In this document: piece after piece, positions 2,243 through 26,071 of the stretch
Numbering within the stretch: position 1 is the first letter of the stretch
How the letters are laid out: each line of letters begins with the position of its first letter
Translations under genes and position numbers: made by a program
The notes under the pieces: model-generated
Told to the model about the DNA's origin: nothing
Databases searched by the model: none
The model's input: only the letters and a program-made list of their open reading frames with translations
Virus record (IMG/VR): IMGVR_UViG_3300046464_000737
Span: 1-35,896 of that record
Source of the DNA: a virus
Length of the DNA stretch: 35,896 bases
Reading direction: 5' to 3' (one strand)

Positions 2243-2244
2243 TG

Positions 2245-4315: not shown

Positions 4316-4337
4316 ATTAAAGATAATTAATAGTATC

Positions 4338-7863: not shown

Positions 7864-7920
7864 GAATAACTTTACACTAAACAATATTTTTTGTGTATAT
7901 CGTTTTAGGTATAAGGTTTT
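7864..7920. promoter_or_regulatory. Divergent promoter region between head-tail operon and tail operon
   Basis: 57 bp between divergent starts at 7863 (-) and 7921 (+). It is very AT-rich (caatattttttgtgtatatc) and carries GTGTATAT, seen as TGTGTATATAAA before the ATG at 1381. GTATAAGG lies just before the + start and again just before the GTG at 26072. It must hold the start signals of both transcripts unless read-through from outside supplies them. Confidence 0.35.
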
Positions 7921-8208: not shown

Positions 8209-8215
8209 TAATATT

Positions 8216-9034: not shown

Positions 9035-9039
9035 TATGC

Positions 9040-10026
9040 GTGGAAACTGTCAAGCGCAGAAAAATATTTAGAGATATAGTTCGAGGTTTCTCTGCTACAA
9101 TCTTTAAGGATGATTATGTTTACATAAAACACTTGACTCCTCATGATCAAGTAGAACTTGAGGAGATAGAGGAAAAATATTTTAATATAGCTTTAAGAAA
9201 AGGAGTTCCCACAGAAGAGGATATGCTCGCCTACCTTAAACAAGAGGGCGAATGGTCTGAAGATGACGATAAATTTATTGTTGACAAGCAACTATTTGTA
9301 GAAAATTTAAAAAAAGCACAGTCCAAAATAATTCTTAAATCAGATGTTGATCGACAATCTAAGTTGATCGAGAAAGAGGAAAGTTTATTGCGGCAAAAGC
9401 AATTTCAAAAAATTTCTTTGATCGGAAACACTTGCGAAAAATATGCAAAAGATAGATTAAATGATTTTTATATGATTAAAAGTTTTTTCTCTGATGTTGA
9501 TATGAAGAAGCCTTTATTTAGTCAAGATAAATTTGATGAGCTTGATAATCATGATATAAAAGTTGTTATAAATAGATACAATGAAATATTCGAAAGCTTT
9601 AATGAAGAAAATATACAATATACTATACTAGAAGATTTTTATAATCCATATTTAAGTTTTGCTGAAGATAGTATGCAATTTTATGGCAAAGCATTTTGTG
9701 ACTTAACATATAATCAAATAAGATTAATTGTATATACTAGAGTATTTAAAAATATATTTGACTCAAATGAAAATATTCCTGAAAATATAAGAAAAGATCC
9801 TGCGAAATTGCTAGAGTTTGGAAGCAGCTCTAGGGAGGAGCGGGACAAAGCTAAGGATAAACTTTCGCAGGGAGATGGAGGCACTATAGTTGGGGCAAAG
9901 GACGAAGATTATGAGTATCTTGGAGTCGAAAAGCCAAAGAATACAATAAATCTTCATGAAGAAGCAAAAAAGAAGGGCGGCACTTTAAATATGGAAGATT
10001 TAATGAAATTACATGGCGTAGGATAA
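9040..10026 (+). CDS. Tail assembly chaperone candidate (second of pair)
   Basis: 328 residues from a GTG at 9040 (METVKRRKIFRDIVRG). An N-terminal beta-like segment (ATIFKDDYVYIKHLTPHDQVE) leads into a long helical acidic/basic region and a disordered, charged C-terminus (SSREERDKAKDKLSQGDGG, NLHEEAKKKGGTLNMEDLM). A frame stop at 9025-9027 shows it cannot be an upstream-extended part of its neighbour. The ATG at 9036 is out of frame and dies at once. Being immediately before the tape measure fits a chaperone that loads or coats it. The protein is longer than lambda T (about 144 residues). Not identified by family. Confidence 0.45.
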   Translation: METVKRRKIFRDIVRGFSATIFKDDYVYIKHLTPHDQVELEEIEEKYFNIALRKGVPTEEDMLAYLKQEGEWSEDDDKFIVDKQLFVENLKKAQSKIILKSDVDRQSKLIEKEESLLRQKQFQKISLIGNTCEKYAKDRLNDFYMIKSFFSDVDMKKPLFSQDKFDELDNHDIKVVINRYNEIFESFNEENIQYTILEDFYNPYLSFAEDSMQFYGKAFCDLTYNQIRLIVYTRVFKNIFDSNENIPENIRKDPAKLLEFGSSSREERDKAKDKLSQGDGGTIVGAKDEDYEYLGVEKPKNTINLHEEAKKKGGTLNMEDLMKLHGVG

Positions 10027-10065: not shown

Positions 10066-13000
10066 ATGTCTATAAATTTAAATGTAAACGGTAATACGGC
10101 CCCGCTGGAGGCAGCTGTTCAGGCGGCTGTAAACAGAATTCGCAAGACTCCAATCAAGGTAACTGTTGACGATAAGGGCGCTACTCAGCCCTTGGGCAAT
10201 ATGAAGCGGGGCGCTGATGAGTTTAGCAAATCGATGGAAGCTGCGAACGCTCGTATTATAGCTTTTGGAGCAAGTATGGCGATTATAAATGGAATTTCTG
10301 ACGCATTCAAAGCTATGGTCACCAATGTCGTTCAGGTAGAAAAAGCTTTGGCAGATATTAATGTTGTGATGGGTTTAAGTTTGGCTAACTTGGATAAGTT
10401 TTCAGACTCTTTATTTAAGGTGGCGAAGGAAACTGCTGCAAGTTTTGATGTAGCTGCTGCAGCAGCCACGGAATATGCACGTCAAGGTTTAGCTGTTGAG
10501 GAAACCTTGAAAAGAACCAAGGACGCTTTAATCTTGACTCGATTAACAGGCATGGACTCTGCAAATGCAGTTAAAGCTTTAACTGCCGCGATGAATACAT
10601 ACGGAGATCAAATAAAAGATACTACTCAATTGGTTAGTAAGTTTGCCGCAGTAGACGTTAAGTTTGCGGTTAGCGCGGAAGACTTTGCTGATGCAATATC
10701 TCGTACTGGTCAGGCTGCAAAAAGTGCTGGAGTAGATATTGATGAGTTGGTGGGTCTGGTTACTGCAGCGCAGCAGCAAACTGCTAGAGGTGGTAAAGTA
10801 ATCGGAAACTCGTTTAAAACAATTTTCACGAGAATAGGAAGAACTGATACATTAAATCAATTAGAAAACTTGGGCATTGCTGTTCGAGATGTCGAAGGAA
10901 ATACAATCGGCGCAAAAAGAATTTTGACTGATCTTGCAAATACGTTTGACTCTTTGACCGAGTCGCAAAAAGCTCAAATTGCACAAACAGTTGGTGGAGT
11001 TTTTCAAATCAATGTTCTTAAGGCTGTATTAAGTGATGCCGCGAAACAAAACGGAATTCTTGCGAACGCAACACAAATTTCTGCAGGGGCTACGGATGAA
11101 GCTATACAAAAGAATGAACAACTAAGAAGCACAATGTCTGCAATGGCTAGCGAAACAGGTCTCGCGCTTAAAGAAGTTTCTGCTAAAATAGGGGAGCTCG
11201 CGATAGCTCCTGGAATGGAAAAGATTTTAAATATCGTTAAAGGTTTTGCGGAAGGAGCTTCTGATATGCTTGGAGATGGAGAGTCTTCTGGAAATAAATT
11301 TGCTACAGGTTTTTTAAAAGGACTCGGTAATATTATTACTGGTCCGGGATTGGTTGTTATCGTTGCCGTGTTTGGCAAACTATTTTTGAAAGCGGCTCAG
11401 TATGCTCGAGAAAGTTTGGGCTCGTTGATTGGTGTTACGAGTGAAGCTCAAAAACAAAAAGCTATACAAACTTCTTTGGTCACTTTATTTGGTCAGAACG
11501 CAGCTCTTAGCAAGGAAATGTTGCGCACCGATATCTCTCGAACAGAAAAGGAAAGAATAATTCTTGGATTGCTTAAAGCTCAGGTAGTGGAAGCTAATGC
11601 TTTAAACACTATCGCGAGAAGTTCTGCAGCTAATTTGTATCAAAAAGGTTACGGATCTAATCTTGCTCCCAGAGCAAAACCTCGCCGTACAAGCGCGCAA
11701 GGTTATATACCTAATTATGTAGACGCTGAGCGCCAGCAAGCCGCACAAGGTGGGTATGCTGCTGGAAGTATTCGCAGTATGAACATGCCTGGCGAAGGCT
11801 CGGTGATATACAACAGTGCAGAAAAAGTAAAGAATTTTAAAGGTATGAGTCAGCCCGCGATTATGCCTCCAAAGTCAAGTAAAGCTGGAGAAAATTATCA
11901 ACAAGCATTTGGCAGTATACATGGATTTGATCCATATGCTGCAGGAGGATATATACCGAATTTTGCGAAAAAAACCGCATCTAAAACTTCTGATATTCCA
12001 CGAAATCTTAATTCTAAAAAACTGGGAGATCTGAATAAAGATTCTTCTTTAATTTTATTAACCGCTGACTCTTCTGCTGATAGCGAGTCGAGGTTCTTTG
12101 TGGGAAAAGACCCTAAGGGTGGGACAAAAATTTTAAACACTGCAGATCTAGCTTCAAAGAGGACTACGGGTTATTACCAAGTAGATGTTCCGTATTATTC
12201 TCTAGATAAAAACGACAAAAGTAGGAAAAGTAAAATAGACTTACCCTCGATACAAAAGGCAATTACTGCTGCAGCATCAGGCAAAGCTCTTGATATAGCC
12301 AAGCAAATTGTCGGGGGAGAGAAGAATTTAAAACCTTTTAATAGAGAACAAATTAAAGAAACATTTAATAAAGGCGCTTTTAAGGGCGCCGCTGGTAGCG
12401 CATTCGAGAGTGCAATAGCTGCAGCCCTTGACTCTTATTTGTTTCAAGATTATAAAGCAAGAACTGATACATCTGCTATAGATTTACCTTATGACCCTAA
12501 GGTGTTTCAGTATTTTGGAGCTCCTCCTGGTGCTGGGAAAATGGGGGCAGAGGTAAAAGCTGATCTAGCTAACAATTTGCAACAAGGTGCCGCCAATAAG
12601 TTTTATCAGGTTTTAGCGGGGGGTCGTGCGGCATGGCAATATAAGGATAAAAATTTTAAGGACCAAATGAGGGGGCCGGCTGAAGATGCAGGTTTGGAAA
12701 GAAGGGGGGGCGCTTATTTTAAGAAAGGTAGGGCTTACGGTCATATTCCAAACTTCGCCGCAGCGCGACTAGCTCTCACGGGTGGATTGGTTGGAAAAAA
12801 CAAATTTGGCAATATAGATCGCAGGCAGATGACAAGACTAGTAAGATCTAATCCTTACTTCAACGGCTTGATGAATGAACATCTTACATGGGACAGTTTT
12901 CCGAAAAAAGATAAGCGTAAATTAAGCAGGTGGCTACTCAAACAAGGGGTGTCTAACCGAGCCTTACAAGCGTATGGTCTTGCAAGCATGCATTCAAAAT

Positions 13001-16000
13001 CGATCGGAGAGGGAATCTCAAACTTAGCTATGGCGAAAGGCTATATTCCTAACTTTGCTGACCCATTATCTGATGCGATAGGTAGGGAAAAAGAGGCTGG
13101 AGTTCCTGTTTCAAAAATAAGAATTGGCTCTCATTCAGCGCTAATGAATAAAAGCAATCCGATTGGTCTGGGCGTAACCAATACAGACGATGAACCAAAT
13201 GGATTGCGAGATGTATTTGGAGCTGCTAATGGATATGTGCCGAATTATTTTAATCCATGGGAGCGCTTAAAAAGTTCGGTAAAGAATAGCGATTTTGGAA
13301 AAAGCTGGGATAAGGCTACGGCGCAGCACACCAAAGAAATACAAAGATTAAACGCCAGAATCAAACAAAGAGAGCAAGCTTTAAGCAAGCATAATCAAGA
13401 GTTATCAGCACTCACTAAGGGGACTAGTGAGTATAACGCAGTTCAGAGAAAAATAAGAGACACCACCAAAAATTTAAATAAAGCTACGCAAAAAAAGACT
13501 GCCCTCCTAAACTCTCCTGCGCCTGGCGTCGGGGGCAAGATGGGTAGATTTAGTCAAGGTCTCGGAAAAGCTTTTTCTGGAAATTCAGGCATGATGATGA
13601 TGATGGGAGCTCCTATGGCGGCAGGGTTTCTTCAGCAAGGGGGGATGGGTGCACAGGGAGGAAATCAAAATATGTACGCTGCAGGTGGAGCCTTAAGCGG
13701 TGCCGCTTCCGGAGCTATGATGGCAAGCATGATAGCCCCAATGTTTGGACCTGGAGCTCCTTTAGTTATAGGTATTGGTGGACTAATTGGAGGACTTGAG
13801 GGCTTAGCGGCTGCAAATGAAGAAAATACAAAAGCATTAAAAGAAGTCGAGAAAGAAAGAAGGCAGCAGGTTGTATCTTCTTTTGTAGGTGCAGATCCTA
13901 AGTTCATGCAAAAATTTTCCAAGAACATATTTAAAGACCTGAGCCCAGAAGACAAATCAGTCATGAGAATGGCAGCGCCTGAGTTTACAGCCACTAAACC
14001 CCCCGATGTTAGCGAAAAAGACATATTTACGAGAAGCGCAGTTAACCCAATAGCTAAAATGAAAATTCCTTTTTTGTCTCCGCTGTTTTCTCCAAGCGAC
14101 GAAGAAAGAGCGCAAGCTACGGAATATAGAGAACAGATGGATGAACAAAAGCAATTTCAAAAATACCAAAAATACCAAGTTAGCAATATGAGAAAAGCTT
14201 TGGGGTCTATGGGGGATGAAGAATTTTTGTTGCCAAATTATCAAAAAAATAAGCAAGGTAAAATACAAACAAAAGGGCAACCCGAGTTAAAAAAAGCTTC
14301 TGCATATCTAGAAAATTTAGAAAACATAGGGTTTTTTGAGGTAAAAGATACTGGTGACGTAGCGAGGGTTGAAGCTCTTCGGTCAAAGTTATACGAAATC
14401 TACCAAAGCAATCTAACCCAGCAAGAAAAAGCCTTAATTCTTCAATTAAACTTTCAGCGAGTGATGTTAAAATCCCAAAAAGCTGCCGCGGATACTCAAT
14501 TAGATATAAAAAGTAAATATCTAAAACAATCTAATTTATTAGATTCTCAAGAAAAGATTCTCGGTGGTTTGATAAGCGAAGAGCAAAAAGTTAGAATTCA
14601 ATACAATAAAAATTTAACAAAAGCTTCTGAGGCGTATGCTAGTGGAGCTGCCAAGGCGGAATCTGATTTTTCTATGGGCCTGCTTCAAGATATTCAGGGA
14701 CAAGGTAGGGATAGCCTTAGATCTGCAATAAAGCAAGAGTTGTTTAATCGGATGACCAACGAAGAACAGCGTGGAAAGGGAACCGCAGAGAGTATTTCAA
14801 ATGTCGAACTCTCTGGAGAATTAGCCGCAATGTCATCTAAGGAAAAAGAAGAATTTTTAACGAGCTTAAAAAATAAAAATAAGGGGCTCGATAACGAAAT
14901 TAATGAAATACTAGGCAATAGACAATTAATATATGATAACCAAATAAACACCCTAGAAAAACAAAAAACTCTTTCTGATGGTCAGAGCCTGTCTCAAAAA
15001 AATCTCAATGAAAAAATTGCTAAACAAAAAGACCTAATGGTTGATGTTAACAGGGAGATGCAAGCTTACATCCGTGGGTTAGATAATGCTGCTCAATCCA
15101 GGGTAATAGCTTCTGAAATTACCGCTGCTAGATTTGGAGCTAGACCTCAAACACAAGAAGCAACTTTTGCGGAGCAACAAAGATTGGTCAAGGAAAGACA
15201 GCAAGGTATTCGCGAATCATATACAAAAAGCGCAGTTTCAGAAATGCAAAAACTGGCAACTGATAAAGGTTTAACTAAGGAGCAAAGATTGGAAATTGCT
15301 GCTGACCCATCAAAATTAAAAGGTATGTCTTCAGCGGCTATTGACTCTATGGAGAAAAGCTTTAAATCAAGAGGAGGGTCGAGGAAAACTACAATGCTAG
15401 ATCAATTAATAAAAAATAGCCCTACTGACACGGAAGACCAAAAAAAATTAAAAATTTCAAGAAAACAGGAATTGGATGAATTAAAAACCCTTGAACAATC
15501 AATTACTGACGCAAAAGCTCAAACATCCAAACAAGAAGACGATATTATTGCCAAGCTTGAAGAGCAAAAAAATAAAGTTGAAGAAAGAATATCAAAAGAA
15601 AAAATATTGCAAGAAATAAGAGAAAAAGAATACACCCGAAGAACTGGCCCAGGTGCTTTCGGAGAGGGCGTTAAGGATGCTGGGATAGATATGGAAAAGC
15701 GGGTCGCTATGATGGACTACGAGCTTGGAACAAGGCTTCCTCAAACATTTGCTAATGGTTTGTCTGGAGCGTTCATTGAGGCGATCAATGGAGCCAAGGA
15801 CTTGGACGACGCGCTCAGAGACGCTGGCTTGAATTTCTTGAAGATGATTCAAGAAGCCATGATGCAAAAAATGGTCATGCAAATGATGGGAGGCTTGGGA
15901 TTTTCGCAAGGAGGTAATGTCCGCAATTACTCGAAGGGCGGAAATGTTCCCGCAAGAGTTTCGAATGGAGAATATTTAATGAGTCGAGAGGCTGTAAATA

Positions 16001-17082
16001 AATACGGCGGATCATTTATGCATGGATTGAACGCCCGAGGAAAAGCTCCTGGATTTTCTTCTGGAGGAAGAACTATTCAGCCAGGATCCGCACTGGCTGC
16101 TAATTTTGGCGGAGCCGAAGGTTATAAATCCGGAAAAAGGTACCAATCTCAAGCAATGTCTTCATTTTTTTATAGCGGACAATCCGGCAATCCTGGACTG
16201 CGGGAGGACACCGACGAAATGAGTAAAATATTGGCAGAAAGAGAGCAAGCAAGGTTGAGAGCTGAGGCTGAGGCAAAAGCAAAAAAACAAGAAAAAAGAG
16301 CCATGTGGGGCATGCTTGCCGGAATTGTCGCGACCTCAGCGGCGAGCTCATTAATGGATCATTTCTCTAGTTCAAACTTAACTGCAGACGCAAAGGCTGA
16401 TGGTTATACTGTAGACACTCCTTCTGGGGTTAGGTCTGCCACAAAAGATGGTTACCAATACAGTCTTCTGCCTGGCGCTAGCGACAAAGGATTTGATAAT
16501 GTTTCTAAAACCAGAAGCTGGAACCCTTTTAGCTGGGGAGGTTCTGGAGCTGGAGCCAGCATAAATGAAAGGCAATTTCAATTTAATGATTTTCAGGCTT
16601 CTCCGAATTATGGCGTTCCCCCCGACCCGTTCGGCTATAAGGACCCTAGGCTTGCGTATTTTGGTGGAAAAATAGGTAACTACGCAAATGGCGGACCTAT
16701 TTCTGGGAAATCTGGAATCGATCAAATTCCTGCGATGCTTAGCGAGGGCGAGTATGTCGTTAAAGCTAGTAGTGCGAGACAGATTGGTAGGCCAATGCTT
16801 GACCAAATAAATGCAGGAAAGTTTTATGATGGAGGGCAAGTATCTACTTTAAGCCAGAACTCGGAATCTTCCGTATCTGAGGGTAATACAAATAATATAA
16901 ATATTTCCGTAAATATAGAAAATGGAACAGTAAAAGAATCTAATGAAAACTCAAAGGATCAGGATTCGAAAAATCAGGATTCTAGTAGTGAGTCTAAGAT
17001 CGCCCAAAAAATTAAACAACAAGTAGTTGCTGTAATAATAGAAGAACAAAGGATTGGGGGTCTTTTAAACAAGTCTAAATGA
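10066..17082 (+). CDS. Tail tape measure protein, modular, with internal nuclease-like region
   Basis: 2338 residues. It sets tail length and is normally released on DNA ejection. Residues ~60-330 match the TP901-type tape measure core (VVQVEKALADINVVMG, then ATEYARQGLAVEETLKRTK and GGKVIGNSFKTIFTRIG). A hydrophobic stretch lies near 420-435 (GPGLVVIVAVFGKLFLKA), another at ~1215-1245 and a third at ~2085. Five GYIPNF-type motifs begin at residues 546, 628, 892, 992 and 1056 and delimit modules. Module 628-892 carries a PD-(D/E)XK-like pattern. Coiled coils follow at ~1085-1140 and over much of 1440-1900. Two C-terminal 'GG...P...S-x-GEY(L/V)(M/V)' signatures (near 1958-1990 and 2208-2260) are typical of tape measures. 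At roughly 0.15 nm per residue a fully helical protein would give about 350 nm, but much of it is not helical. Its stop overlaps the next start (ATGA). Confidence 0.93.
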   Translation: MSINLNVNGNTAPLEAAVQAAVNRIRKTPIKVTVDDKGATQPLGNMKRGADEFSKSMEAANARIIAFGASMAIINGISDAFKAMVTNVVQVEKALADINVVMGLSLANLDKFSDSLFKVAKETAASFDVAAAAATEYARQGLAVEETLKRTKDALILTRLTGMDSANAVKALTAAMNTYGDQIKDTTQLVSKFAAVDVKFAVSAEDFADAISRTGQAAKSAGVDIDELVGLVTAAQQQTARGGKVIGNSFKTIFTRIGRTDTLNQLENLGIAVRDVEGNTIGAKRILTDLANTFDSLTESQKAQIAQTVGGVFQINVLKAVLSDAAKQNGILANATQISAGATDEAIQKNEQLRSTMSAMASETGLALKEVSAKIGELAIAPGMEKILNIVKGFAEGASDMLGDGESSGNKFATGFLKGLGNIITGPGLVVIVAVFGKLFLKAAQYARESLGSLIGVTSEAQKQKAIQTSLVTLFGQNAALSKEMLRTDISRTEKERIILGLLKAQVVEANALNTIARSSAANLYQKGYGSNLAPRAKPRRTSAQGYIPNYVDAERQQAAQGGYAAGSIRSMNMPGEGSVIYNSAEKVKNFKGMSQPAIMPPKSSKAGENYQQAFGSIHGFDPYAAGGYIPNFAKKTASKTSDIPRNLNSKKLGDLNKDSSLILLTADSSADSESRFFVGKDPKGGTKILNTADLASKRTTGYYQVDVPYYSLDKNDKSRKSKIDLPSIQKAITAAASGKALDIAKQIVGGEKNLKPFNREQIKETFNKGAFKGAAGSAFESAIAAALDSYLFQDYKARTDTSAIDLPYDPKVFQYFGAPPGAGKMGAEVKADLANNLQQGAANKFYQVLAGGRAAWQYKDKNFKDQMRGPAEDAGLERRGGAYFKKGRAYGHIPNFAAARLALTGGLVGKNKFGNIDRRQMTRLVRSNPYFNGLMNEHLTWDSFPKKDKRKLSRWLLKQGVSNRALQAYGLASMHSKSIGEGISNLAMAKGYIPNFADPLSDAIGREKEAGVPVSKIRIGSHSALMNKSNPIGLGVTNTDDEPNGLRDVFGAANGYVPNYFNPWERLKSSVKNSDFGKSWDKATAQHTKEIQRLNARIKQREQALSKHNQELSALTKGTSEYNAVQRKIRDTTKNLNKATQKKTALLNSPAPGVGGKMGRFSQGLGKAFSGNSGMMMMMGAPMAAGFLQQGGMGAQGGNQNMYAAGGALSGAASGAMMASMIAPMFGPGAPLVIGIGGLIGGLEGLAAANEENTKALKEVEKERRQQVVSSFVGADPKFMQKFSKNIFKDLSPEDKSVMRMAAPEFTATKPPDVSEKDIFTRSAVNPIAKMKIPFLSPLFSPSDEERAQATEYREQMDEQKQFQKYQKYQVSNMRKALGSMGDEEFLLPNYQKNKQGKIQTKGQPELKKASAYLENLENIGFFEVKDTGDVARVEALRSKLYEIYQSNLTQQEKALILQLNFQRVMLKSQKAAADTQLDIKSKYLKQSNLLDSQEKILGGLISEEQKVRIQYNKNLTKASEAYASGAAKAESDFSMGLLQDIQGQGRDSLRSAIKQELFNRMTNEEQRGKGTAESISNVELSGELAAMSSKEKEEFLTSLKNKNKGLDNEINEILGNRQLIYDNQINTLEKQKTLSDGQSLSQKNLNEKIAKQKDLMVDVNREMQAYIRGLDNAAQSRVIASEITAARFGARPQTQEATFAEQQRLVKERQQGIRESYTKSAVSEMQKLATDKGLTKEQRLEIAADPSKLKGMSSAAIDSMEKSFKSRGGSRKTTMLDQLIKNSPTDTEDQKKLKISRKQELDELKTLEQSITDAKAQTSKQEDDIIAKLEEQKNKVEERISKEKILQEIREKEYTRRTGPGAFGEGVKDAGIDMEKRVAMMDYELGTRLPQTFANGLSGAFIEAINGAKDLDDALRDAGLNFLKMIQEAMMQKMVMQMMGGLGFSQGGNVRNYSKGGNVPARVSNGEYLMSREAVNKYGGSFMHGLNARGKAPGFSSGGRTIQPGSALAANFGGAEGYKSGKRYQSQAMSSFFYSGQSGNPGLREDTDEMSKILAEREQARLRAEAEAKAKKQEKRAMWGMLAGIVATSAASSLMDHFSSSNLTADAKADGYTVDTPSGVRSATKDGYQYSLLPGASDKGFDNVSKTRSWNPFSWGGSGAGASINERQFQFNDFQASPNYGVPPDPFGYKDPRLAYFGGKIGNYANGGPISGKSGIDQIPAMLSEGEYVVKASSARQIGRPMLDQINAGKFYDGGQVSTLSQNSESSVSEGNTNNINISVNIENGTVKESNENSKDQDSKNQDSSSESKIAQKIKQQVVAVIIEEQRIGGLLNKSK
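11701..13248 (+). repeat. Five GYIPNF-type motifs delimiting tape measure modules
   Basis: GYIPNY (11701), GYIPNF (11947), GHIPNF (12739), GYIPNF (13039) and GYVPNY (13231) occur within residues 546-1061, each after a small Ala/Gly/Lys-rich segment and mostly followed by (A/V/F). The spacers are 76, 258, 94 and 58 residues. The motif also occurs in other marine-phage tape measures as I recall; I cannot check that here. Possible meanings are linker/hinge, protease site or binding site for another tail component. Confidence 0.85.
12379..12651 (+). other. PD-(D/E)XK nuclease-like region inside tape measure
   Basis: Residues ~772-862. A small-residue helix GAAGSAFESAIAAALDSY carries Glu781; Asp806 lies in TSAIDLP; Glu829 and Lys831 lie in GAEVKAD; a helix NNLQQGAANKFYQVL with Gln follows. 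Order and spacing fit a helix-Glu, strand-Asp, strand-ExK, helix-Gln nuclease core. There is no experimental support, and the Asp to ExK gap of 22 residues includes a Gly/Pro-rich loop. A structural or degenerate domain is the alternative. Confidence 0.4.
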
Positions 17083-18209: not shown

Positions 18210-19123
18210 GTAATCCGTTTTTAAGGTTCGAAGATGGAAAAATTTCCTTAGGAGGTAAAGACTTATTGGTTTCATCTGCGAACCTTTCTATTTCTCCATC
18301 TTTTCAGGTAGAGAGGGTTTACGGGGATTATGATCCCGACCTGGTTGGAGCTAAGACAGAATTTATTAATTTCGCCCCAATGACCGGACTTAATGGAAAA
18401 TTGGATATTTCGTTTTACATCTCCGCCGAATCTTTTAATCGAGAAGGAGGTATTAATTCTATCGAAAGACTGTTTGAAATAAAAGGCGGAATGTCTGAGG
18501 ATCCTATACATTCAAATGTTGTTGGTAGATATTCTTTCGACAATATGTATTTAACTTCTTTTAGTTTTGAGCTTCAACCTTTTAAAATTGTTAAGGCTAG
18601 CGCTTCGTATATTATATATGGTTCAATCAGAAAGAATCCTAGCCGAAGATTTGTTCAGTTGGGAGCTAATTTTGCTCATGGGTTAAAATCTTTCGGGCAA
18701 ATAAAAATTGGAGGCGCTGCAGTTAACCCTTCTTCCTCTGAGAAGTTTGAAATTAATAGTTTGAATTATAAAATAATCGTGGATAGAAAGCTACATACTA
18801 AGATAAGAGAATCTGAAAATACGAGTATTAATACTTTTCCCGACGGGGTCTTGCCTTATAGAGTTTCAGTTGAAAGCATCGAGTCTGAAATGAATGTGCA
18901 ATGTAATGATATTGTCTCAAGCTTGAATTCTTACGGAGATCAGCAGCTGGGGAGCTCTCCCGAAGGGCTGCAAGATTCTGAAATTTGCGCCTTTTTGTAC
19001 TCTGCAAAAGGGGAGAGGGTCGCTAAATTTTCCTCAAGGGGTAAGATTCAGTCAGAGTCTATTTCTATAACTGAAGGATCAAACGCTTCTTGCAATATAT
19101 ATATTAAGGAAATTATAAAGTAA
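18206..19123 (+). CDS. Tube-fold tail protein / distal tail adaptor candidate
   Basis: 305 residues, rich in beta-strand pattern. RYSFDNMYLTSFSFELQPFK and KASASYIIYGSIRKN align with the corresponding region of the 376-residue neighbour (GFTKGRVSRYSVSCSVG, TDIIVFGSLGKN). It also begins with ISLGGKDLLVSSANLSIS, comparable to the neighbour's INGISLSGVQDVNGSYG. It lacks the inserted FGGD module. The pair may be successive rings between tube and tip. The stop shares bases with the next start (TAATG). Confidence 0.55.
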   Translation: MSNPFLRFEDGKISLGGKDLLVSSANLSISPSFQVERVYGDYDPDLVGAKTEFINFAPMTGLNGKLDISFYISAESFNREGGINSIERLFEIKGGMSEDPIHSNVVGRYSFDNMYLTSFSFELQPFKIVKASASYIIYGSIRKNPSRRFVQLGANFAHGLKSFGQIKIGGAAVNPSSSEKFEINSLNYKIIVDRKLHTKIRESENTSINTFPDGVLPYRVSVESIESEMNVQCNDIVSSLNSYGDQQLGSSPEGLQDSEICAFLYSAKGERVAKFSSRGKIQSESISITEGSNASCNIYIKEIIK

Positions 19124-22100
19124 TGAGTAATAATCCTGAAGATGGAAATTATTTTCTAGCTAACATATCTAATTATAGCGGGGTTTTTGACCCTTCTCTT
19201 GGTTATAAAAAGTTTGATTTTGTTTATGATCAGAATGACGGGCTTTATTATTACGCAAAAAAAGATATTTCTTTTGGTGGTAATGTTCAAGTTTCGGGTG
19301 ATTATAGATTTGATTTAGTTCCCGATGGCCCCATAATAGATAATAGACAATCGTATTACATTTATGATAAATGGAATCAATTAGGGTTGCTAAACCAAGG
19401 CTTTAGTGCTGGGCAAGAAATAAGTATACAGGGTTCTATGCAGGGTTCAAACGGAAACTTTGAGGTTTTAGAGGTTGAAGAGAGCGTGGATGCTTATTTT
19501 TCTTCAGAAGCTCAAAACACCATTATCTCTGCGTTAGATCTCACTGAACTTGCTGGAGGTTGGTACAGGTCTTCGTGGTTTTTTATTCCTAATAAGGGAG
19601 AAGTTTCTGAACTCGACAAGTCTCTTAACTATCTAATAGAAGGTAGTAATTGGATTTATAATACACTACTCGGTTGGCTTTTTATTAATCTTGATAATTC
19701 TTACGGAAAAAACTTTTGGTTTTACATGCCACAATTTTCTAACTCTAGGAGTGAGGGTGACGGTGTTTGGTTGTGGGCTGATATTCAAACTATCGGCTCT
19801 TCAATTTCAAGCTCAAACTCTTTTATTTATCTAGGACCTTCTAATCAAGTTAACGACTACTTGAGTTATGTGGTAAATTCTCCAGAGCTTAATGAATATT
19901 ACTCTCTTGGTAAAAGTTGGGATTATCAGGATGGCCTGGGCTCTCTTCCGTCAGATAGAAAAAGTAAAGAGGAATTTGGACTAAGTCATTGGGTTTTTAA
20001 AGGAGAAAAAGAAGGTTATTCTATGCCAACAAAACAGCTCATGGGTGCAGAAAGTTGGGTTTCTTGTTCCGAGTCTCACTCAGACTTATATTCTGTTTAT
20101 TTTTATAATTACTCTGATAATACTTGGTTTGGCAAATCAACGTCTTCTCTGGCCATCTCTCAAGTTTCGAGCTCTCAGGTTCAAATATCTCCAGAGTCTT
20201 CTACTCCTTCGAGTTTTGTGCCTAATAGGTTGACCGATGGGGTATCTTCTAGGTTGATCGTTAGAGGTGTAAATGAGAATTCTAAGATCTCTGCAATTGA
20301 GGAAGCTGGCGGAAATAATATTATTCTTACCTCTGTCAATCATTTGCCCAGTTCTAGTCAAGATGCTTGGGCGTCCGACAGATTCTTTTTTGATGCAGAT
20401 TATGGGTCTAATGTAAATTTCAAAGCCAATGTAAGTAAAAATGAATTCGGCAATGGATATTATTCTGTTCAACCAAAAGGAATAAATTGTTTGGACTTTG
20501 AGGTTAATTTAGATTTTAAAAATAGGACTAATAGGGAGGCTAATGCAATCATTCATTTTTTAGAATCCCATCAAGGCCAACTAGAAAAAGATTCTTCCTC
20601 TTCTTTTTTGCAGTATAATCAGGGAATATCCGGATTCAATTGGGACGGATCTTCCACCTTTCACCCATACGACTCCCTGGATAATCAATCTAAGACTTTT
20701 TACTGTTCAGAGTTTTCTCATAGTTTAAATTTTGAGAATAGCAATGATATCTCTGTTAAGTTGAGAAATTTTAATACTTCTATATTGAATAAGTCTGAAT
20801 CATTGTTTGTTAATAGAGCTGATGATTATAGTGAAAGCTCTTATTATTCTAAAAATGATGTGGTTTTTTATCCAGATAATCATCAGTATTATTATTTTCA
20901 TAGCGGAAGCCAGCATCAGGAGACTCTAGCTGGGCCTCCCGCTTTGATGCATGATGAGTGGACTAAACAAAGCGGGTATTGCTCAGAGATAAACAAAGAA
21001 GCGTGGACTAGGGAGTTTTTCTGGAAACCTTCTGTCGGGCTAACTGTGTCCCAGAAACCCAAAGTTTTAGAAGTAAATTTGAACGATTCGTATTCGCAGA
21101 TTTATAAAAACGGAATTAATGCTAATCTATTAAATTTAAATCTGAATTTTAATAATAGAGATGACGCAGAGTGTTATTCTATTCTTCATTTTTTGGAACA
21201 ACATTACGGATCTGTACCTTTTATATTTTACCCTCCTGCTCCCTACGAAACAGAAAAGGCTTTTATATGTAGAGATTGGTCTCACGTTTATAATTTTAAA
21301 AATAATCATAGTATATCTGTTCTATTCGAGGAGTTTCCTTTAAAGCTATCGAGTGAGGATTTAATTAACCAAACACCTCCCGCAATAAAAACTAAAGGAG
21401 AAATAATTGCTCCTTCTTTTTTAGAGTTTTCTGAAGAGAATGAAGAGTTCTCTTGGGATTCCGTGTTAAAGAAAAGGTTTTATATAAAAAATGTTGGCGG
21501 AACTGATGTAGATATATCAAGCTTGCGCATTTCTTCAGAAAGATATTTTAGAATTTTAGGAAAAAGGTCCTTAGGCGAAACGTATTGCACTGAGGGGCTT
21601 GATAGAAAAAGTTTGGTTTTCGACGAGAGCTTTGTTACAGCGCGATCTATATATTTAGATATTTTAGAGCAAGATGCTCCCGAGAGTTTTATTCAAATAT
21701 ATTCTGAAGATTTAAAATATTGGAGCGTTGGCGATTTTATTGGGGTACTAATGAATGACGATTTATTTCTTTATTCCGCTCCTTCCGTTAAAAAAATAAA
21801 AATTTTATATAAAGATTTATTGGGCAGGGATGCAGATTCGCAGGGCTTAGATTACTATATAAATGAGAGTGATAATTTAAGTATTGTTGAGTCAATAATG
21901 GATTCTAGTGAGTTTTGCGAAGCTTTTCTTTTGCCTAAAACTTCTGAGCGGCCAGGAACCGTACTGCAAGTACCTTTGGATAAGCTATTAGATCTTAATC
22001 TTCAGGGTAGGACGATAAAACTTAAATCTTATGATGATGGAGTTCAGGGTTTTGAGACTTTCGATGATGGCCCTTTTGCTAGATTTATTCAGTACCCGGA

Positions 22101-24525
22101 TGGAAAAATAAAAGATGAGGGATCTGGCACATTTTATGATTATTCGTATTTCATTAATAGCTCTATGTTTGAGCAATATGGAACTTCTGTCGTTCCTGCT
22201 TATTCTGAGGTATATATAGACATAGTATATCAAAATAAATATGGCGAGATTCCGGCATTTTTTTTAGAAGATAATTTAGGGGAGAGAATAGAGTGGAATA
22301 ATTATGATGGAAGCCTGGGAGGAGGTTTAAAGATTTCAAATGGAAGCGAGTGGCTCGACTCCGAACTTACAATTCAAGCTGATTCTAAGGCAATAAAGTC
22401 AGAGCTTCGAGCTTGGGTAACGTCTTCAGATAAAGAGCGCAAAGAAGTTATTGAGGAGGAGAATGAAGCCTGGAAAAAAGCCGAATGCATAACTTTTCCT
22501 TTAAGCCTGAGATTTATGGACGCAGATAACAGTCGTTTAGAAAAATTTGGTGACATGTTTTTTCAATCACTTAGTCATGGGGACCCAGTCCGACCTAGAA
22601 CCGAAAACTCTGAGGGAACTTTATTTAAAGATGCGGTTAATTGTAGGGCTGATTGGGCTTTGCTTGACTCTTCTGACTTTGTTCATTATTTAGGTTTATG
22701 GGTTCCTTATGAATTTAAAACTTTTTCAATACAGAATGGGGGGGTTTTATTGCCAAGGCCTTTTTCTCCAACTTCTGTTCTAAGTTCTACCGGTGAACTA
22801 AAAATTAACTCCTCTATTTCTTTGGACGTCGCTAATTCTGATATTCATACATTGATAAGTATTGAGCCTATCGATTCATCTGAATTACCATTAGGGTATT
22901 CCAGCGGTTGGAGTCAAAAGGGAATTATGAAAATTCATTCTTCAAAAGCTAACACTTTCGAAGATAATTTACCTTTGCCGGTTAGTGTTTCATACTCTTG
23001 TTTTTCTGAAGCTTCTTGCTTTATTGAGGATAATGCGGGATTGGGTAATATACAGTTTTCTATAGAACCTGTAGTTTATAAATATGGAATGTTGTATGAC
23101 AGCGAGCTTGAAAGTTATTATGTAGAGAATAAAGATGGAGATTCGCTAGGAACAAACCTAGATCTTAATTCGGCTTACAGTCTGCTACTGAGGTCAAAAA
23201 CATCTCTCGATGCTTATAAGAAGATGGTTGATTACTGGAGCAGGATTTCATGCAGAATTTGGAGGCACTTGACTAGAACTGATGCTCAGGATGAATTGCT
23301 CAAGCAAGCTTATTCAAATCAGGGGCTTGAGCAACTTTGGGTTGCAGGAAGCTTTATTCGACAATCTTCTCCGCTTCCATATTTAAAAAACTCTCCTGGG
23401 TTTAATTTTGATATAAATTTTATGTGCCCAGATATAGATCCTAGGTTTAAAGAAGGGCTTGAAGAAGCTATACTTTCTTGGCAGAATATTATTCAAGATG
23501 ATTGTTCTATAAGTGTGGACATAGTTGAGAGCTCTCATGGCAGAGTACCTGGAGAATTTGGGTTTGATCCAAATTCTTCAACAATAGCTTATGTCGCATC
23601 GAGTCAGTTAAGTTTTATAGAAAAAGGCATGAGGGTCTGGGGAAAAGATTACCCTCTTCGCGCAAGCGCTGTTTTTGGGTATAACCCTGAGATTATGTCT
23701 TCTGATGAATCTCTTAATTTAAATAGCTTGGGATCAAGTTTTGCTAAAGAGGTATCATCTCATGAACTTGGGCACGTTTTTGGGTTGACTATGTTTCATA
23801 AAGTGGGGTTTTTTATGCCCGCAAGCCAAGAGAAGCTTAATGAGATAATACCTAACCAAATCATAAGGCCTTTTGGCGGAGATTTTGTTTTCTTTACTAA
23901 TTCGAATGGAGATACTTTAAGCGAAGATGAAAATCTGAAGACGGTATGGGACAACGTACTTGGACCTTGGGAAACAGAGCCTGTGTTTATAGACCAGGCG
24001 CAATACGATTCTCTGTCCGACGAATCTTTTTTAAGTTCTGACAATAAAACATTATCTTTGGGCAAAGACGCCTTTAGTGAAAGACATAACATAACCTCTT
24101 TATGGAGAGATGAGAGTCAGCAACTCATGACTCATTCTTATGAAAATGAAGATTTTGGATGGCAATATGTCGCAGCTAAAGGGGTTGAAAAATATCAAGA
24201 GTTAATTGCTCATAATGGATACGATGATCCGGATAATTATTTTTATGAAAGCGCGCCTCTTAATCAAAGGAATAGTACCAATTCTACAGAAATACTACCG
24301 GACCTGCACTTTTCTGAGTTTCCAAAAAAGCAAAAAAATGGCATTAAATGGCAACCAGCTTTTCCAGCCGCCCTTATGACCCCTTTTATCGACTTAAATA
24401 AGGGCATGACTCAATCAAGATTTACTTTAGGATGTATAGAGGATTTAGGTTATACTGTTGATTATACTTTTGCATGTTCTAATGACCACCCTAGCTTAAA
24501 AATAGATGCTGGAGATAACGATTAA
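19123..24525 (+). CDS. gpM-like tail tip protein fused to DUF4214 and leishmanolysin-like peptidase
   Basis: 1800 residues. Residues ~20-54 and ~565-619 resemble CBM5/12 modules (SYYSKNDVVFYPDNHQYYYF). Residues ~145-345 are aromatic repeats (SNWIYNTLLGWLFINLDN, FWFYMPQ, VWLWAD). Two lambda-M-like minor tail domains lie near 435-555 and 640-745: RTNREANAIIHFLESHQGQ and RDDAECYSILHFLEQHYG, each followed by F(Y/I)C(S/R)(E/D)(F/W)S and a closing F-E-E-F-like strand. An Ig-like region with (I)KNVGGTDVDISSL lies near 755-880, and DUF4214 near 885-940. The C-terminal ~380 residues form a zinc peptidase with HELGHVFG at 1547-1554. It sits in the M position before the L-like gene. Fusion of a tip protein with a peptidase is unusual. 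Confidence 0.8.
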   Translation: MSNNPEDGNYFLANISNYSGVFDPSLGYKKFDFVYDQNDGLYYYAKKDISFGGNVQVSGDYRFDLVPDGPIIDNRQSYYIYDKWNQLGLLNQGFSAGQEISIQGSMQGSNGNFEVLEVEESVDAYFSSEAQNTIISALDLTELAGGWYRSSWFFIPNKGEVSELDKSLNYLIEGSNWIYNTLLGWLFINLDNSYGKNFWFYMPQFSNSRSEGDGVWLWADIQTIGSSISSSNSFIYLGPSNQVNDYLSYVVNSPELNEYYSLGKSWDYQDGLGSLPSDRKSKEEFGLSHWVFKGEKEGYSMPTKQLMGAESWVSCSESHSDLYSVYFYNYSDNTWFGKSTSSLAISQVSSSQVQISPESSTPSSFVPNRLTDGVSSRLIVRGVNENSKISAIEEAGGNNIILTSVNHLPSSSQDAWASDRFFFDADYGSNVNFKANVSKNEFGNGYYSVQPKGINCLDFEVNLDFKNRTNREANAIIHFLESHQGQLEKDSSSSFLQYNQGISGFNWDGSSTFHPYDSLDNQSKTFYCSEFSHSLNFENSNDISVKLRNFNTSILNKSESLFVNRADDYSESSYYSKNDVVFYPDNHQYYYFHSGSQHQETLAGPPALMHDEWTKQSGYCSEINKEAWTREFFWKPSVGLTVSQKPKVLEVNLNDSYSQIYKNGINANLLNLNLNFNNRDDAECYSILHFLEQHYGSVPFIFYPPAPYETEKAFICRDWSHVYNFKNNHSISVLFEEFPLKLSSEDLINQTPPAIKTKGEIIAPSFLEFSEENEEFSWDSVLKKRFYIKNVGGTDVDISSLRISSERYFRILGKRSLGETYCTEGLDRKSLVFDESFVTARSIYLDILEQDAPESFIQIYSEDLKYWSVGDFIGVLMNDDLFLYSAPSVKKIKILYKDLLGRDADSQGLDYYINESDNLSIVESIMDSSEFCEAFLLPKTSERPGTVLQVPLDKLLDLNLQGRTIKLKSYDDGVQGFETFDDGPFARFIQYPDGKIKDEGSGTFYDYSYFINSSMFEQYGTSVVPAYSEVYIDIVYQNKYGEIPAFFLEDNLGERIEWNNYDGSLGGGLKISNGSEWLDSELTIQADSKAIKSELRAWVTSSDKERKEVIEEENEAWKKAECITFPLSLRFMDADNSRLEKFGDMFFQSLSHGDPVRPRTENSEGTLFKDAVNCRADWALLDSSDFVHYLGLWVPYEFKTFSIQNGGVLLPRPFSPTSVLSSTGELKINSSISLDVANSDIHTLISIEPIDSSELPLGYSSGWSQKGIMKIHSSKANTFEDNLPLPVSVSYSCFSEASCFIEDNAGLGNIQFSIEPVVYKYGMLYDSELESYYVENKDGDSLGTNLDLNSAYSLLLRSKTSLDAYKKMVDYWSRISCRIWRHLTRTDAQDELLKQAYSNQGLEQLWVAGSFIRQSSPLPYLKNSPGFNFDINFMCPDIDPRFKEGLEEAILSWQNIIQDDCSISVDIVESSHGRVPGEFGFDPNSSTIAYVASSQLSFIEKGMRVWGKDYPLRASAVFGYNPEIMSSDESLNLNSLGSSFAKEVSSHELGHVFGLTMFHKVGFFMPASQEKLNEIIPNQIIRPFGGDFVFFTNSNGDTLSEDENLKTVWDNVLGPWETEPVFIDQAQYDSLSDESFLSSDNKTLSLGKDAFSERHNITSLWRDESQQLMTHSYENEDFGWQYVAAKGVEKYQELIAHNGYDDPDNYFYESAPLNQRNSTNSTEILPDLHFSEFPKKQKNGIKWQPAFPAALMTPFIDLNKGMTQSRFTLGCIEDLGYTVDYTFACSNDHPSLKIDAGDND
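21775..21945 (+). other. DUF4214 module in the M-like protein
   Basis: Residues ~885-941 read VKKIKILYKDLLGRDADSQG, LDYY, then SIVESIMDSSEFCEAF. This fits the DUF4214 pattern: V..LY...LGR.aD..GL.YY...... followed by ..S.EF. DUF4214 is common in secreted and S-layer-like bacterial proteins, and its function there is not settled. A second copy sits in the I-J fusion at ~28403. Confidence 0.75.
23376..24492 (+). other. Leishmanolysin-like (M8-type) zinc peptidase domain
   Basis: The domain (residues ~1419-1790) begins FDINFMCPDIDPRFKEGLEE with AILSWQNII, the usual substrate-face entry of such bacterial peptidases. HELGHVFG supplies His1547, Glu1548, His1551 and Gly1554. A candidate third zinc ligand is His1729 in LHFSE, with Met1752 in AALMTP as Met-turn and TLGCIEDLGYTVDY as the closing signature. 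A ~68-residue FGGD module is inserted at ~1584-1651. All catalytic residues look intact, so activity is plausible but not shown. Confidence 0.7.
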
Positions 24526-24531
24526 TATATT

Positions 24532-25731
24532 ATGACACAGGAATCAAGTTCAAACTTAAATAAGCAGTTAAATTCTTTAACTCCCGATACTCTTCTTGAG
24601 TTTTTTGAGATAGATTTTAGCACTCTCCAAGCAAACTTTGATCAGTTTAAATTGGATTATGGAATAACTTTTGGCGCTGACCCTATTTATAGGTTTTGCC
24701 CCATGATAAATGGAACAAACCCTATTATCTGGCAGGGAGTCTCCTTTCAGCCTTTGCCTATAAAGATAGAAGGTTTTGAGCATAAGTCTGAAGGAGGTTT
24801 GCCTAGGCCAATATTAACCCTTGCAAATCCTGATGGAATATTCTCTAGAATAGTTTATTCTAATCAAGATTTTACTAATTGTAAGGTAACCAGAAAGCGA
24901 ACTTTTGCTAAATTTCTTGACTTGGATAATTTCCAAAACAGGAATCAGGAGGGTGGTACCAATAGCCTTTTTGCTCTCGAAGATAAAGAAGCTCATTTTG
25001 ATGATGATATATATTATGTAAATAGGAAGGTTTCCGAGAATAAAAAAAGCATATCTTTTGAGTTAATTTCTCCACTGGAAATGGACAATGCTAAGATTCC
25101 TGCAAGAAAAATAATTTCTAATTTTTGTCCATGGACTTATAGGTGTTCTGTGGGTTGCAAGTACAGTGGTTTGCCTATAGAGAGTATTGAGGGGGTTGAT
25201 CTTACTGAAAATTTTTTAAGCAAAAAGAACCAAGGGTTGTTCTCTAATTCTTCTTCAATCAATGAAGCATTACTTGATAAAGATTTAGGTAAAGTCAGGG
25301 TAGATCGATATCCAGAAATGCTTAAGTCTGTGCCTGAGTGGAGCCCTTTTGGTCATCAATTTTCTGAAGAATCTAAAAAGTTTTTAGAAGGTTCTGAAGG
25401 GGAAATATTCAGTTATAAATTGGGAGATTTGGTAAAAATAGTTAATTCTTCGTCTTCTAATCCTTACGTTCAAGCGCCGCAAGTTTTTGTGTGTACGAAA
25501 ACTCATACATCTCCGGCTGAATTTCATCCCTATTTAAGCAAGAGTTATTGGGCTAAGGATGAATGCTCTAAGACTATAAGCGCATGCAAAAAAAGATTTC
25601 CCCCTCGAGGTTCTGTAGAAGAAAAAAAATACGCAACTAGAGGTAATATTTTTGTAAGAAAAGAGGGCACCATTCCTCAAGACCTTAGGTTTGGGGGTTT
25701 TCCTGGAACTGAGGAATATCCTTTTGAATAA
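24532..25731 (+). CDS. L: gpL-like minor tail protein with Fe-S cysteines and CBM-like insert
   Basis: 399 residues. The N-terminal part has the L pattern: WQGVSFQPLPIKIEGFE, GGLPRPILTLANPDGI, a later SFELISPLEM, then SNFCPWTYRCSVGCKYSG and ECSKTISACKKRF before the FGGFPGTE tail. Lambda L has four cysteines that bind an iron-sulphur cluster; here Cys199, Cys205/Cys209, Cys345 and Cys352 are the candidates. The second Cys pair is separated from the first by ~135 residues containing a CBM5/12-like insert (~294-342: YKLGDLVKI, QVFVCTKTHTS, KSYWAKDE). It starts 6 bp after the previous gene. It should form part of the tail tip, below the M-like protein. Confidence 0.85.
   Translation: MTQESSSNLNKQLNSLTPDTLLEFFEIDFSTLQANFDQFKLDYGITFGADPIYRFCPMINGTNPIIWQGVSFQPLPIKIEGFEHKSEGGLPRPILTLANPDGIFSRIVYSNQDFTNCKVTRKRTFAKFLDLDNFQNRNQEGGTNSLFALEDKEAHFDDDIYYVNRKVSENKKSISFELISPLEMDNAKIPARKIISNFCPWTYRCSVGCKYSGLPIESIEGVDLTENFLSKKNQGLFSNSSSINEALLDKDLGKVRVDRYPEMLKSVPEWSPFGHQFSEESKKFLEGSEGEIFSYKLGDLVKIVNSSSSNPYVQAPQVFVCTKTHTSPAEFHPYLSKSYWAKDECSKTISACKKRFPPRGSVEEKKYATRGNIFVRKEGTIPQDLRFGGFPGTEEYPFE
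25411..25557 (+). other. CBM5/12-like domain inserted in gpL-like protein
   Basis: Residues ~294-342 read YKLGDLVKIVNSSS, PQVFVCTKTHTSPAEFHPYL and SYWAKDE: the Y-x-x-GD-x-V, (V/L)(F/Y)xC and terminal W pattern of the tube insert and fibre repeats. It is placed between two cysteine pairs whose clustering is expected in the L family, so it must loop out from the fold. Confidence 0.55.
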
Positions 25732-26056
25732 TCCCTTCCAAGAATTATTGTTATGCAAGATTAAAAAATATGCGAGAAAAAATAGTGGGGAAGAGTCCTG
25801 CGGCGTTATAGTTCGGGATCTTGCGGGTTTCAAGTTCTTTCCTTGCGAGAATTTAAGCCTAAAAAAAGATTCTCATTTTTTTATAGACCCTTATATTCTA
25901 GTTGAAAATAATGTAGCGTGCATTTATCATTCTCATGTGAGCCAATCTTCTGAGCCTTCTACTCTTGATAAAAAAACTTCCAATGAATTATGTATTCCTT
26001 ATTTAATATATAGTTTAAAAGATGATGACTTTTATTTTTATAATTGTGTACATTAA
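25724..26056 (+). CDS. K: gpK-like tail assembly protein, JAMM/MPN peptidase domain only
   Basis: About 110 residues. The frame contains HSHVSQSSEPSTLD, an exact HxH-x7-S-x2-D JAMM zinc motif. An upstream Glu in GEESCGVIV is the expected fourth element. In lambda K this MPN domain is followed by an NlpC/P60 hydrolase; here the protein stops after LIYSLKDDDFYFYNCVH, so the hydrolase is absent. There is no ATG in frame: candidates are TTG at 25691 and TTG at 25724, the latter overlapping the gpL stop TAA (25729-25731). I favour 25724 because of coupling, but it is not certain. Between L-like and I/J genes it matches the lambda order. Confidence 0.75.
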   Translation: MNNPFQELLLCKIKKYARKNSGEESCGVIVRDLAGFKFFPCENLSLKKDSHFFIDPYILVENNVACIYHSHVSQSSEPSTLDKKTSNELCIPYLIYSLKDDDFYFYNCVH

Positions 26057-26071
26057 GTATAAGGCAATAAG

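Follow-up and report, generated by a model that had tools for sequence, protein, structure and literature searches.

Exchangeable cassettes bounded by a short motif in a phage tape measure protein suggest an array of host-directed effectors

Here, we describe an array of domains inside the tape measure protein (TMP) of a tailed phage, in which near-identical hexamers separate the domains and one domain is exchanged as a cassette among close relatives. The phage belongs to a group recorded in environmental DNA and is represented by IMGVR_UViG_3300046464_000737, a virus record of 35,896 nt, and its whole length (positions 1–35,896) is the window analyzed here. The second module of the array, a predicted nuclease, is a polymorphic cassette exchanged at the motifs, a conclusion that is strongly supported by protein and DNA comparisons. 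We propose that the TMP bears an effector array with motif-bounded exchangeable cassettes that would be delivered to the host cytosol, and we put the probability of this reading at about 60%.

The protein is placed among TMPs by an N-terminal PhageMin_Tail domain and by the position of its gene ahead of the tail-tip genes. It matches 14 PHROG families, 13 of which are named tail length tape measure protein. Five near-identical hexamers within 516 residues, as the original prediction had noticed, are confirmed at residues 546–551 (GYIPNY), 628–633 (GYIPNF), 892–897 (GHIPNF), 992–997 (GYIPNF), and 1056–1061 (GYVPNY). The spacers between them are 76, 258, 94, and 58 residues long, exactly the module lengths first given. 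The features of the gene are as follows; AlphaFold2 scores are predicted local distance difference test (pLDDT) values.

10066..17082 (+): TMP gene carrying the array, 2338 aa, open frame (Pfam, PHROG)
10426..10998 (+): PhageMin_Tail domain, residues 121–311 (Pfam, E = 1.7e-27)
11332..11388 (+): hydrophobic, membrane-span-like segment ahead of the array, residues 423–441, Kyte-Doolittle mean 2.19
11701..11718 (+): motif 1, GYIPNY (AlphaFold segment under pLDDT 50)
11719..11946 (+): module 1, 76 aa, conserved, cluster C3 (44 loci), separate predicted fold
11947..11964 (+): motif 2, GYIPNF, left seam of the exchanged cassette (AlphaFold linker; DNA identity)
11965..12738 (+): module 2, 258 aa, polymorphic cassette, cluster C1 (130 loci), predicted PD-(D/E)xK-like nuclease
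12406..12408 (+): candidate active-site Glu781 in a helix (G..FE) (conservation)
12481..12483 (+): candidate active-site Asp806 (conservation)
12550..12558 (+): candidate active-site Glu829-x-Lys831 (conservation)
12598..12600 (+): candidate second-helix Lys845 (conservation)
12739..12756 (+): motif 3, GHIPNF (AlphaFold linker)
12757..13038 (+): module 3, 94 aa, accessory insert, cluster C11, 7 loci
13039..13056 (+): motif 4, GYIPNF, right seam (AlphaFold linker; relative comparison)
13057..13230 (+): module 4, 58 aa, conserved, cluster C0 (138 loci)
13231..13248 (+): motif 5, GYVPNY, border to the variable scaffold (AlphaFold linker; relative comparison)
13249..15165 (+): scaffold behind the array, residues 1062–1700, variable
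13720..13776 (+): hydrophobic segment after the array, residues 1219–1237, Kyte-Doolittle mean 1.51

The exchange is seen when the window is compared with 14 chosen relatives (L003 and L005 were left out because they share the window's cassette). Their N-termini have a mean identity of 0.82 to that of the window, and module 1 and motif 2 reach 0.87 and 0.85. Identity then falls to 0.15 for module 2 and to 0.17 for both motif 3 and module 3, the latter being absent from most of these relatives. It recovers to 0.89 at motif 4, is 0.86 across module 4 and 0.89 at motif 5, and amounts to 0.29 over the post-array scaffold. The original prediction held that a short motif is kept while module content varies. 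This stands strongly for module 2 and does not extend to modules 1 and 4, which are conserved. Because these two modules are conserved and common in the group, we read them as fixed carrier parts and probably not as cargo. Directly after motif 5, identity to relatives drops from 0.89 to about 0.2 (window 13231–15165), and the post-array scaffold may thus be exchanged at the motif too.

Pairwise comparisons show how little of module 2 is shared by phages that are otherwise nearly identical here. Module 2 is less than 40% identical to that of the window in 22 of 25 pairwise rows, the exceptions being L003, L005, and L008. Among 89 open reading frames (ORFs), 28 pairs have a 250-aa upstream segment that is at least 98% identical; their median module 2 identity is 25%, with 24 pairs below 40% and four at 80% or more. 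Within one set of six (L006, L020, L021, L028, L030, and L139), all 15 pairs are 98–100% identical over the upstream 250 aa and 98–100% in module 4, and 20–38% identical in module 2.

At the DNA level, the change falls at the motifs. We analyzed blocks of 15 nt in 29 pairs with N-terminal identity of at least 90% and module 2 identity below 45% (33 pairs minus four with L011, a near-copy of L010); 25 of them were used downstream, the other four being dropped as the next module differs. At the left seam, mean identity per block is 94, 88, 94, and 89%, then 79% in the motif, then 39, 28, and 34%. At the right seam, it is 25, 27, and 49%, then 87% in the motif, then 95, 91, and 88%. These pairs share members, and are thus not independent.

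Some pairs show the reverse pattern, a shared cassette in diverged surroundings. In L020 and L026, module 2 DNA is 95% identical, while the flanks are 67 and 76% identical upstream and 82% downstream. In-place divergence does not produce this pattern; cassette transfer does. In L004 and L030, module 2 DNA is 85% identical, with flanks of 66 and 77% upstream and 88% downstream; the downstream value suggests that the transferred tract probably extends beyond the cassette. Two further pairs are less clear upstream: L025/L026 (module 2 DNA 78%; flanks 67, 74, and 50%) and L046/L061 (96%; flanks 81, 92, and 53%).

Whole modules are also replaced or gained. When TMPs are cut at the motifs and the pieces clustered, as had been suggested with the original prediction, equivalent slots are found to hold domains without detectable similarity in TMPs that are 98–99% identical over an N-terminal segment of 300 aa. 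With a looser motif as the cutting site, the 616 resulting pieces fall into 100 clusters, of which 61 have a single member. They form 82 module orders; one is empty once small linker clusters are disregarded, and contig ends truncate many. L012 and L013 have 300-aa N-terminal segments that are 100% identical (rounded), and of the two only L013 has module 3, which is an accessory insert. L088 and L110 (N-terminal segment 96%) differ by one insert that carries one motif along. L265 and L320 (99%) have a different cluster in the first slot (C14 and C18, respectively), followed by the same modules. Finally, L119 and L144 (98%) have the module orders C5-C1-C15-C8-C7 and C1-C13-C8-C7-C0.

The hexamer itself is unlikely to have arisen by chance or by recent duplication. 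The pattern G[YH][IV]PN[FY] did not occur in any of 20,000 shuffles of the TMP sequence, and a looser pattern run over all six frames of the window found just two single look-alikes outside the array, GEIPAF and GMVPSF. The five motif copies use different codons, which argues against a recent DNA repeat. Across related ORFs, 399 motifs give the consensus A-A-x-G-[YFH]-[IV]-P-N-[FY]-A, mostly from loci that were retrieved using the motif itself. A literature search, which did not extend to subscription papers or preprints, found no paper containing GYIPNF, and the titles of papers containing IPNFA were unrelated to phages.

We modelled residues 541–1075 with AlphaFold2 from an alignment of 111 sequences, which gave four confident domains in the array. 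Longer stretches under pLDDT 50 cover model residues 3–13, 87–103, 332–371, 437–457, and 513–531. All five motifs lie in these low-confidence linkers, at model residues 6–11, 88–93, 352–357, 452–457, and 516–521. The motifs thus sit between predicted domains. Placement inside one continuous fold, which the original prediction had named as incompatible with it, is not seen.

The motif is found well beyond the window. Scans with a back-translated GYIPNFA pattern recovered at least 120 viral contig stretches and 107 bacterial genome stretches, and a GFIPNFA scan recovered at least 93 further loci, 78 of 93 with two or more motifs in one ORF; such scans select for motif-bearing loci. Two or more motifs in one ORF were present in 110 of 120 viral loci (drawn from the at least 120), versus 4 of 107 bacterial loci. 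When the first motif lies at residue 400 or later, 126 of 131 ORFs match a TMP N-terminal profile, which took 18 of the window's relatives as seeds and was then refined by iteration over the very ORFs that it scored. Judged from these sequence matches, the motif is the mark of one protein type, the TMP. Before counting, we dropped ORFs shorter than 250 aa, ORFs nested within a larger one, and every bacterial locus but four, the first and third of these filters reducing 233 ORFs to 210; many ORFs are truncated by contig ends.

Multi-motif ORFs occur in four bacterial genomes (L191, L203, L240, and L257), all of them metagenome-assembled genomes (MAGs) in which the arrays may lie on co-binned phage contigs. 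Two array-bearing MAGs have the label Flavobacteriaceae, at most a hint at possible hosts. In one bacterial family, 1 of 397 genomes has the array, and this is a genome already counted as a carrier. The MAG labelled Woesebacteria (L257, G004:C2) has two long ORFs that weakly match the array alignment (E = 7.8e-5 and 1.1e-4). A module 2 profile matched 130 ORFs among the collected loci, which were mostly retrieved through the motif or the TMP, and every one of these ORFs has two or more motifs. Thus, no silent cassette copies outside TMPs were found in the collected loci (130 of 130 matches in motif ORFs).

Module 2 has the conserved residues expected of a nuclease. From 131 modules, 126 were kept by length and 119 after near-duplicate removal; alignment A2 holds 118 of these 119, without L026. 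Among the 119 sequences, G777 is kept in all; column 781 is E in 114 and D in 4; column 806 is D in 118 and E in 1; column 829 is D or E in 118; K831 is kept in all; and column 845 is K in 106 and Q in 13. The four-residue signature is complete in 118 of 119, at a mean column identity of 10%. We take the PD-(D/E)xK signature to be Glu in helix 1, Asp, (D/E)xK, and Lys or Gln in helix 2, which module 2 fits. The module 2 model (pLDDT 86; predicted template modelling score, pTM, 0.82) agrees with this in its order of elements, namely the helix with E781, the strand with ExK, and the helix with K845. On sequence and model, we are fairly confident that module 2 would be a PD-(D/E)xK-type nuclease, and hold the label no more firmly because no Pfam nuclease row was listed and no fold relative was found.

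Other arrays have other candidate enzymes in their slots. Pfam scans covered the arrays of 30 loci, relative to 190 ORFs with two or more motifs. Only SNase (L126), GNAT (L300), and HIGH_NTase1_ass (L289) exceeded the curated cut-offs, and the remaining rows are read as weak or chance matches. Cluster C18 belongs to the staphylococcal nuclease family (Pfam 2.3e-8 in L126; PDB thermonuclease 1.5e-6). The GNAT module of L300 matches Pfam at 5e-7 and a PDB acetyltransferase at 9.6e-4, and the P-loop module C5 matches a PDB phosphate-loop protein at 2.8e-7 over 34 residues. In L289, the HIGH-type nucleotidyltransferase region matches Pfam at 1.5e-7 (41 residues); an HATPase match in L271 is weak (9.5e-5, under the curated cut-off).

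Further labels were given at the level of motifs: kinase-like (C16, catalytic residues 4 of 4), HAD-like (C8), ADP-ribosyltransferase (ART)-like (C39 and C82), and zincin-like modules. The kinase, ART, HAD, zincin, and nucleotidyltransferase labels rely on motifs, with patterns written after reading the sequences. Shuffling gave mean hits per 616 modules of 0.0 for kinase, 0.6 for ART, 0.75 for HAD, 2.2 for zincin, 0.0 for nucleotidyltransferase, and 1.2 for P-loop; a lone hit to the ART or zincin pattern is thus weak. Judged by motif or family, TMPs of the group combine several disparate candidate activities in one polypeptide, as polyvalent proteins do. Examples are L061, with P-loop (C5) and PD-(D/E)xK-like (C1) modules, and L300, with GNAT, HAD-like, and zincin-like modules, only part of which exceed Pfam cut-offs. 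The window's own TMP differs in this respect: only module 2 is enzyme-like, and modules 1, 3, and 4 have no assigned activity. It would thus function in the manner of a polyvalent protein, but we do not class it among them.

Three arrays have features worth recording. In L271 (C21), one 570-aa module unites a GHKL ATPase-like part and an HExxH-type site. Its GHKL part is weakly similar to phage proteins; among the matches listed, the best is a hypothetical protein of Arthrobacter phage Atuin (E = 5e-4), with rIIA-labelled rows at 0.08 to 0.8. A link to counter-defence via this rIIA similarity is possible. A phmmer search of the GHKL-like module against the PDB gave no match at 0.1. In L289 (C43), a P-loop shares a 662-aa module with a HIGH-type nucleotidyltransferase-like region, and a relation to NAD is possible. 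The L126 stretch with the SNase module matches PHROG 8809 (2317 positions, function unknown; E = 2.4e-10), and further carriers may therefore exist among known phages.

Downstream of the TMP gene, the window has a block of tail genes with the following domain matches.

19123..31198 (+): lambda-type tail-tip gene block (domain matches)
19123–24525 (+): Phage_min_tail
24532–25731 (+): Phage_tail_L
25691–26056 (+): JAB domain protein, 121 aa, among the tail-tip genes
26072–31198 (+): tail assembly protein fused to central tail fiber J

These Phage_min_tail, Phage_tail_L, JAB, and assembly protein/fiber J genes mark the tail as lambda type. A 1577-aa frame with a TTG start (31164–35894) continues past the right end of the record and may be a gene of the tail fibre type. 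Neither Rfam nor tRNA scans matched anything in the window.

We suggest the following explanation. Domains predicted to fold independently lie between the TMP N-terminal domain and its scaffold, on disordered linkers that each bear one A-x-G-Y-I-P-N-F-A motif. The motif serves as a fixed in-frame seam, such that a unit of module plus motif can be swapped, gained, or lost by recombination at or beside it, and conserved modules (1 and 4 in the window) frame the variable slot. In other phages, the slots hold staphylococcal-nuclease, acetyltransferase, P-loop, kinase-like, ADP-ribosyltransferase-like, HAD-like, or metallopeptidase-like domains. The comparisons above show the layout of the carrier, its predicted domain borders, the exchange at the seams, and the conservation of catalytic-type residues, whereas the nuclease activity, the presence in the virion, the delivery, and the targets are inferred. 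The array would travel in the virion with the TMP, its flanking hydrophobic segments would enter the inner membrane, and the array would thereby be exposed to the cytosol of the new host, where it might act on host targets in early takeover or counter-defence.

Segments of TMPs are thought to enter the inner membrane. A hydrophobic segment precedes the array in 86 of 87 TMPs and follows it in 70 of 87, and one lies within the array in only 3 of 87; with both segments in the inner membrane, the array would loop on one side. ATP, acetyl-CoA, and NAD are cytosolic, and since the likely enzymes need ATP, acetyl-CoA, NAD, or DNA, this points to the cytosol. In lambda, robust labelling by an inner-membrane reporter during injection is reported for the TMP and for no other phage protein (PMC13190303). 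For the hexamer, a role as a tolerant linker or docking site seems the first choice; cleavage at the hexamer has a chance of about one in three. If the hexamers are cleaved, the JAB-domain protein at 25691–26056 is a candidate peptidase.

Several points weigh against this explanation. A folded 258-aa domain is about as wide as the tail lumen, so packing would need unfolding or another site. Fold searches with the array gave no usable match in PDB or BFVD, and a PDB profile search with the array alignment gave weak hits only (best E = 0.17). For module 2, fold searches of the PDB found no relative (nothing at E <= 0.001; best Z 3.9, an unrelated chain), and Pfam searches of 118 members showed no nuclease among the 25 families listed of 41 weak ones. 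The HAD-like and kinase-like profiles have no PDB relative at E <= 1. Array length has no clear relation to post-array length (Spearman 0.20, P = 0.13, 59 TMPs; in 18 close relatives, Spearman 0.32, P = 0.19), although this decides nothing.

Self-protection is a further difficulty, as a nuclease cassette would have to spare the phage's own DNA. No judgeable gene tracks the cassette in the 18 of 29 relatives that were compared gene by gene, and no linked immunity gene was identified. Genes at 3160–10026 stay similar in relatives carrying other cassettes, and downstream genes in the cassette-sharing L003 and L005 are just 53–59% identical (17079–19123) or less. Two genes at 1406–3108 (−) are 99–100% identical in L005 and 24–51% elsewhere, and are not covered in L003; like the gene at 57–485, uncovered in the comparison, they could not be judged. 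The first of these two variable genes has a weak H-type lectin match (E = 6e-5), just under the curated cut-off.

The best-surviving alternative, itself unlikely, is that the modules are active inside the cell that makes the phage, or are excised ahead of tail assembly; the TMP would then be a late polyprotein and the hexamers its processing sites. A strict short linear motif in disordered linkers does look like a protease site, a JAB-type domain is encoded among the tail genes, and some arrays have HExxH-type sites. However, Pfam finds no peptidase in the window's TMP, and the motif is also retained between conserved modules that look structural.

Ordinary TMP variability is less probable still. 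Module 2 would then be a fast-evolving structural or membrane-channel part with no enzymatic or cargo role, in keeping with the post-array scaffold, which is variable as well (mean 0.29), and with the missing fold match to a nuclease. TMPs often look mosaic by sequence, according to a survey of phage mosaicism that was unable to confirm a genuine recent case among them (PMC10684548). The exchanges here involve whole domains within nearly identical flanks, changed as cassettes at fixed seams. Variability of this kind also fits poorly with catalytic-type residues in 118 of 119 module 2 sequences despite 10% mean column identity, and with SNase and GNAT modules that pass Pfam cut-offs.

A very improbable reading is that of selfish elements (homing endonucleases, inteins, or introns) for which the TMP gene is merely a place to insert. 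Module 2 is nuclease-like and mobile, and TMP genes of other phages are reported to be interrupted by homing endonucleases in spliced introns (PMC10448857). Here, however, the TMP frame is open throughout (no search for intein splice motifs was made), many diverged versions and not one spreading element occupy the slot, other cassettes are acetyltransferase or kinase-like, and inserts arrive as a module plus one motif.

No cultured carrier of the array was found in tblastn searches of phage isolates with array or motif-region queries, among the matches listed. The window's 516-aa array region and the L265 array had no match. A single module 4 hit (E = 3) lies antisense to small genes and was rejected as chance. 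The L126 sequence from the first motif onward matched 17 isolate records. Two of these, Moraxella phage Mcat8 (E = 2e-5) and Microcystis phage Mae-JY22 (E = 0.01), match the SNase module in short separate genes with no TMP array, and were rejected; matches of the remaining 15 fall past the array. One of the latter is Synechococcus phage S-BM3 (51 residues at 55%), in which the motif is absent from the matched ORF and the surrounding stretch, and stretches of two related cyanophages have no motif either. Queries that included the N-terminal part matched 330 (L061) and 175 (L126) isolate records, the best 20 and best 40 of which, respectively, are all N-terminal matches. The L271 array matched 83 records, and the best 15 of 83 align with its GHKL-like part. 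With only the N-terminal part of the window's TMP as query, 230 isolate records were matched, each at less than 60% identity. A cultured carrier may therefore exist.

The proposed effector array has partial parallels in known systems. Polyvalent proteins likewise combine several unrelated enzymatic domains (ARTs, kinases, GNATs, peptidases, and nucleases) in a single protein, which is presumed to enter the host together with the phage DNA (Iyer et al. 2017); they are discussed with MuF, portal, and conjugation proteins in a source whose main text lacks the word “tape” (PMC5512222), whereas here the carrier is a TMP with a hexamer at the joints. The TMP-related effectors of contractile injection systems, Tme (PMC11126660) and Sle1 (PMC13277306), are described as having a TMP-like carrier and diverse functional domains, one of them a C-terminal DNase (PMC11126660). 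Their functional domain is C-terminal and they are effectors of a bacterial particle, in contrast to the internal array in a phage TMP. MuF polymorphic toxins (PMC12226406) share a phage-linked carrier with a variable enzymatic part, yet are described with a C-terminal toxin and an immunity protein, whereas here the modules are internal and no immunity gene was identified. TMPs with peptidoglycan hydrolase motifs, as in mycobacteriophage TM4, also have an enzymatic part; these are described as acting on the cell wall, while most domains here would need cytosolic substrates or cofactors. What we call new is putative polyvalent-like cargo in a new carrier, the TMP, with a motif-based exchange seam.

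We give even odds to a broader proposal, that these TMPs form a polymorphic effector system in the tail ruler. A widespread group of phages would carry an open-ended set of host-directed enzymes as TMP cassettes, joined by a universal hexamer that accepts any cassette in frame and is handled by the tail, and the effectors would be delivered stoichiometrically with the tail, ahead of or with the DNA. If the array is delivered, long-tailed phages would gain a protein-injection route of a type that has until now been proposed for head proteins and for contractile particles. The motif would then be a handle for finding many unknown effector domains in metagenomes. Such a system would link tail assembly, DNA entry, and early host takeover in a testable way.

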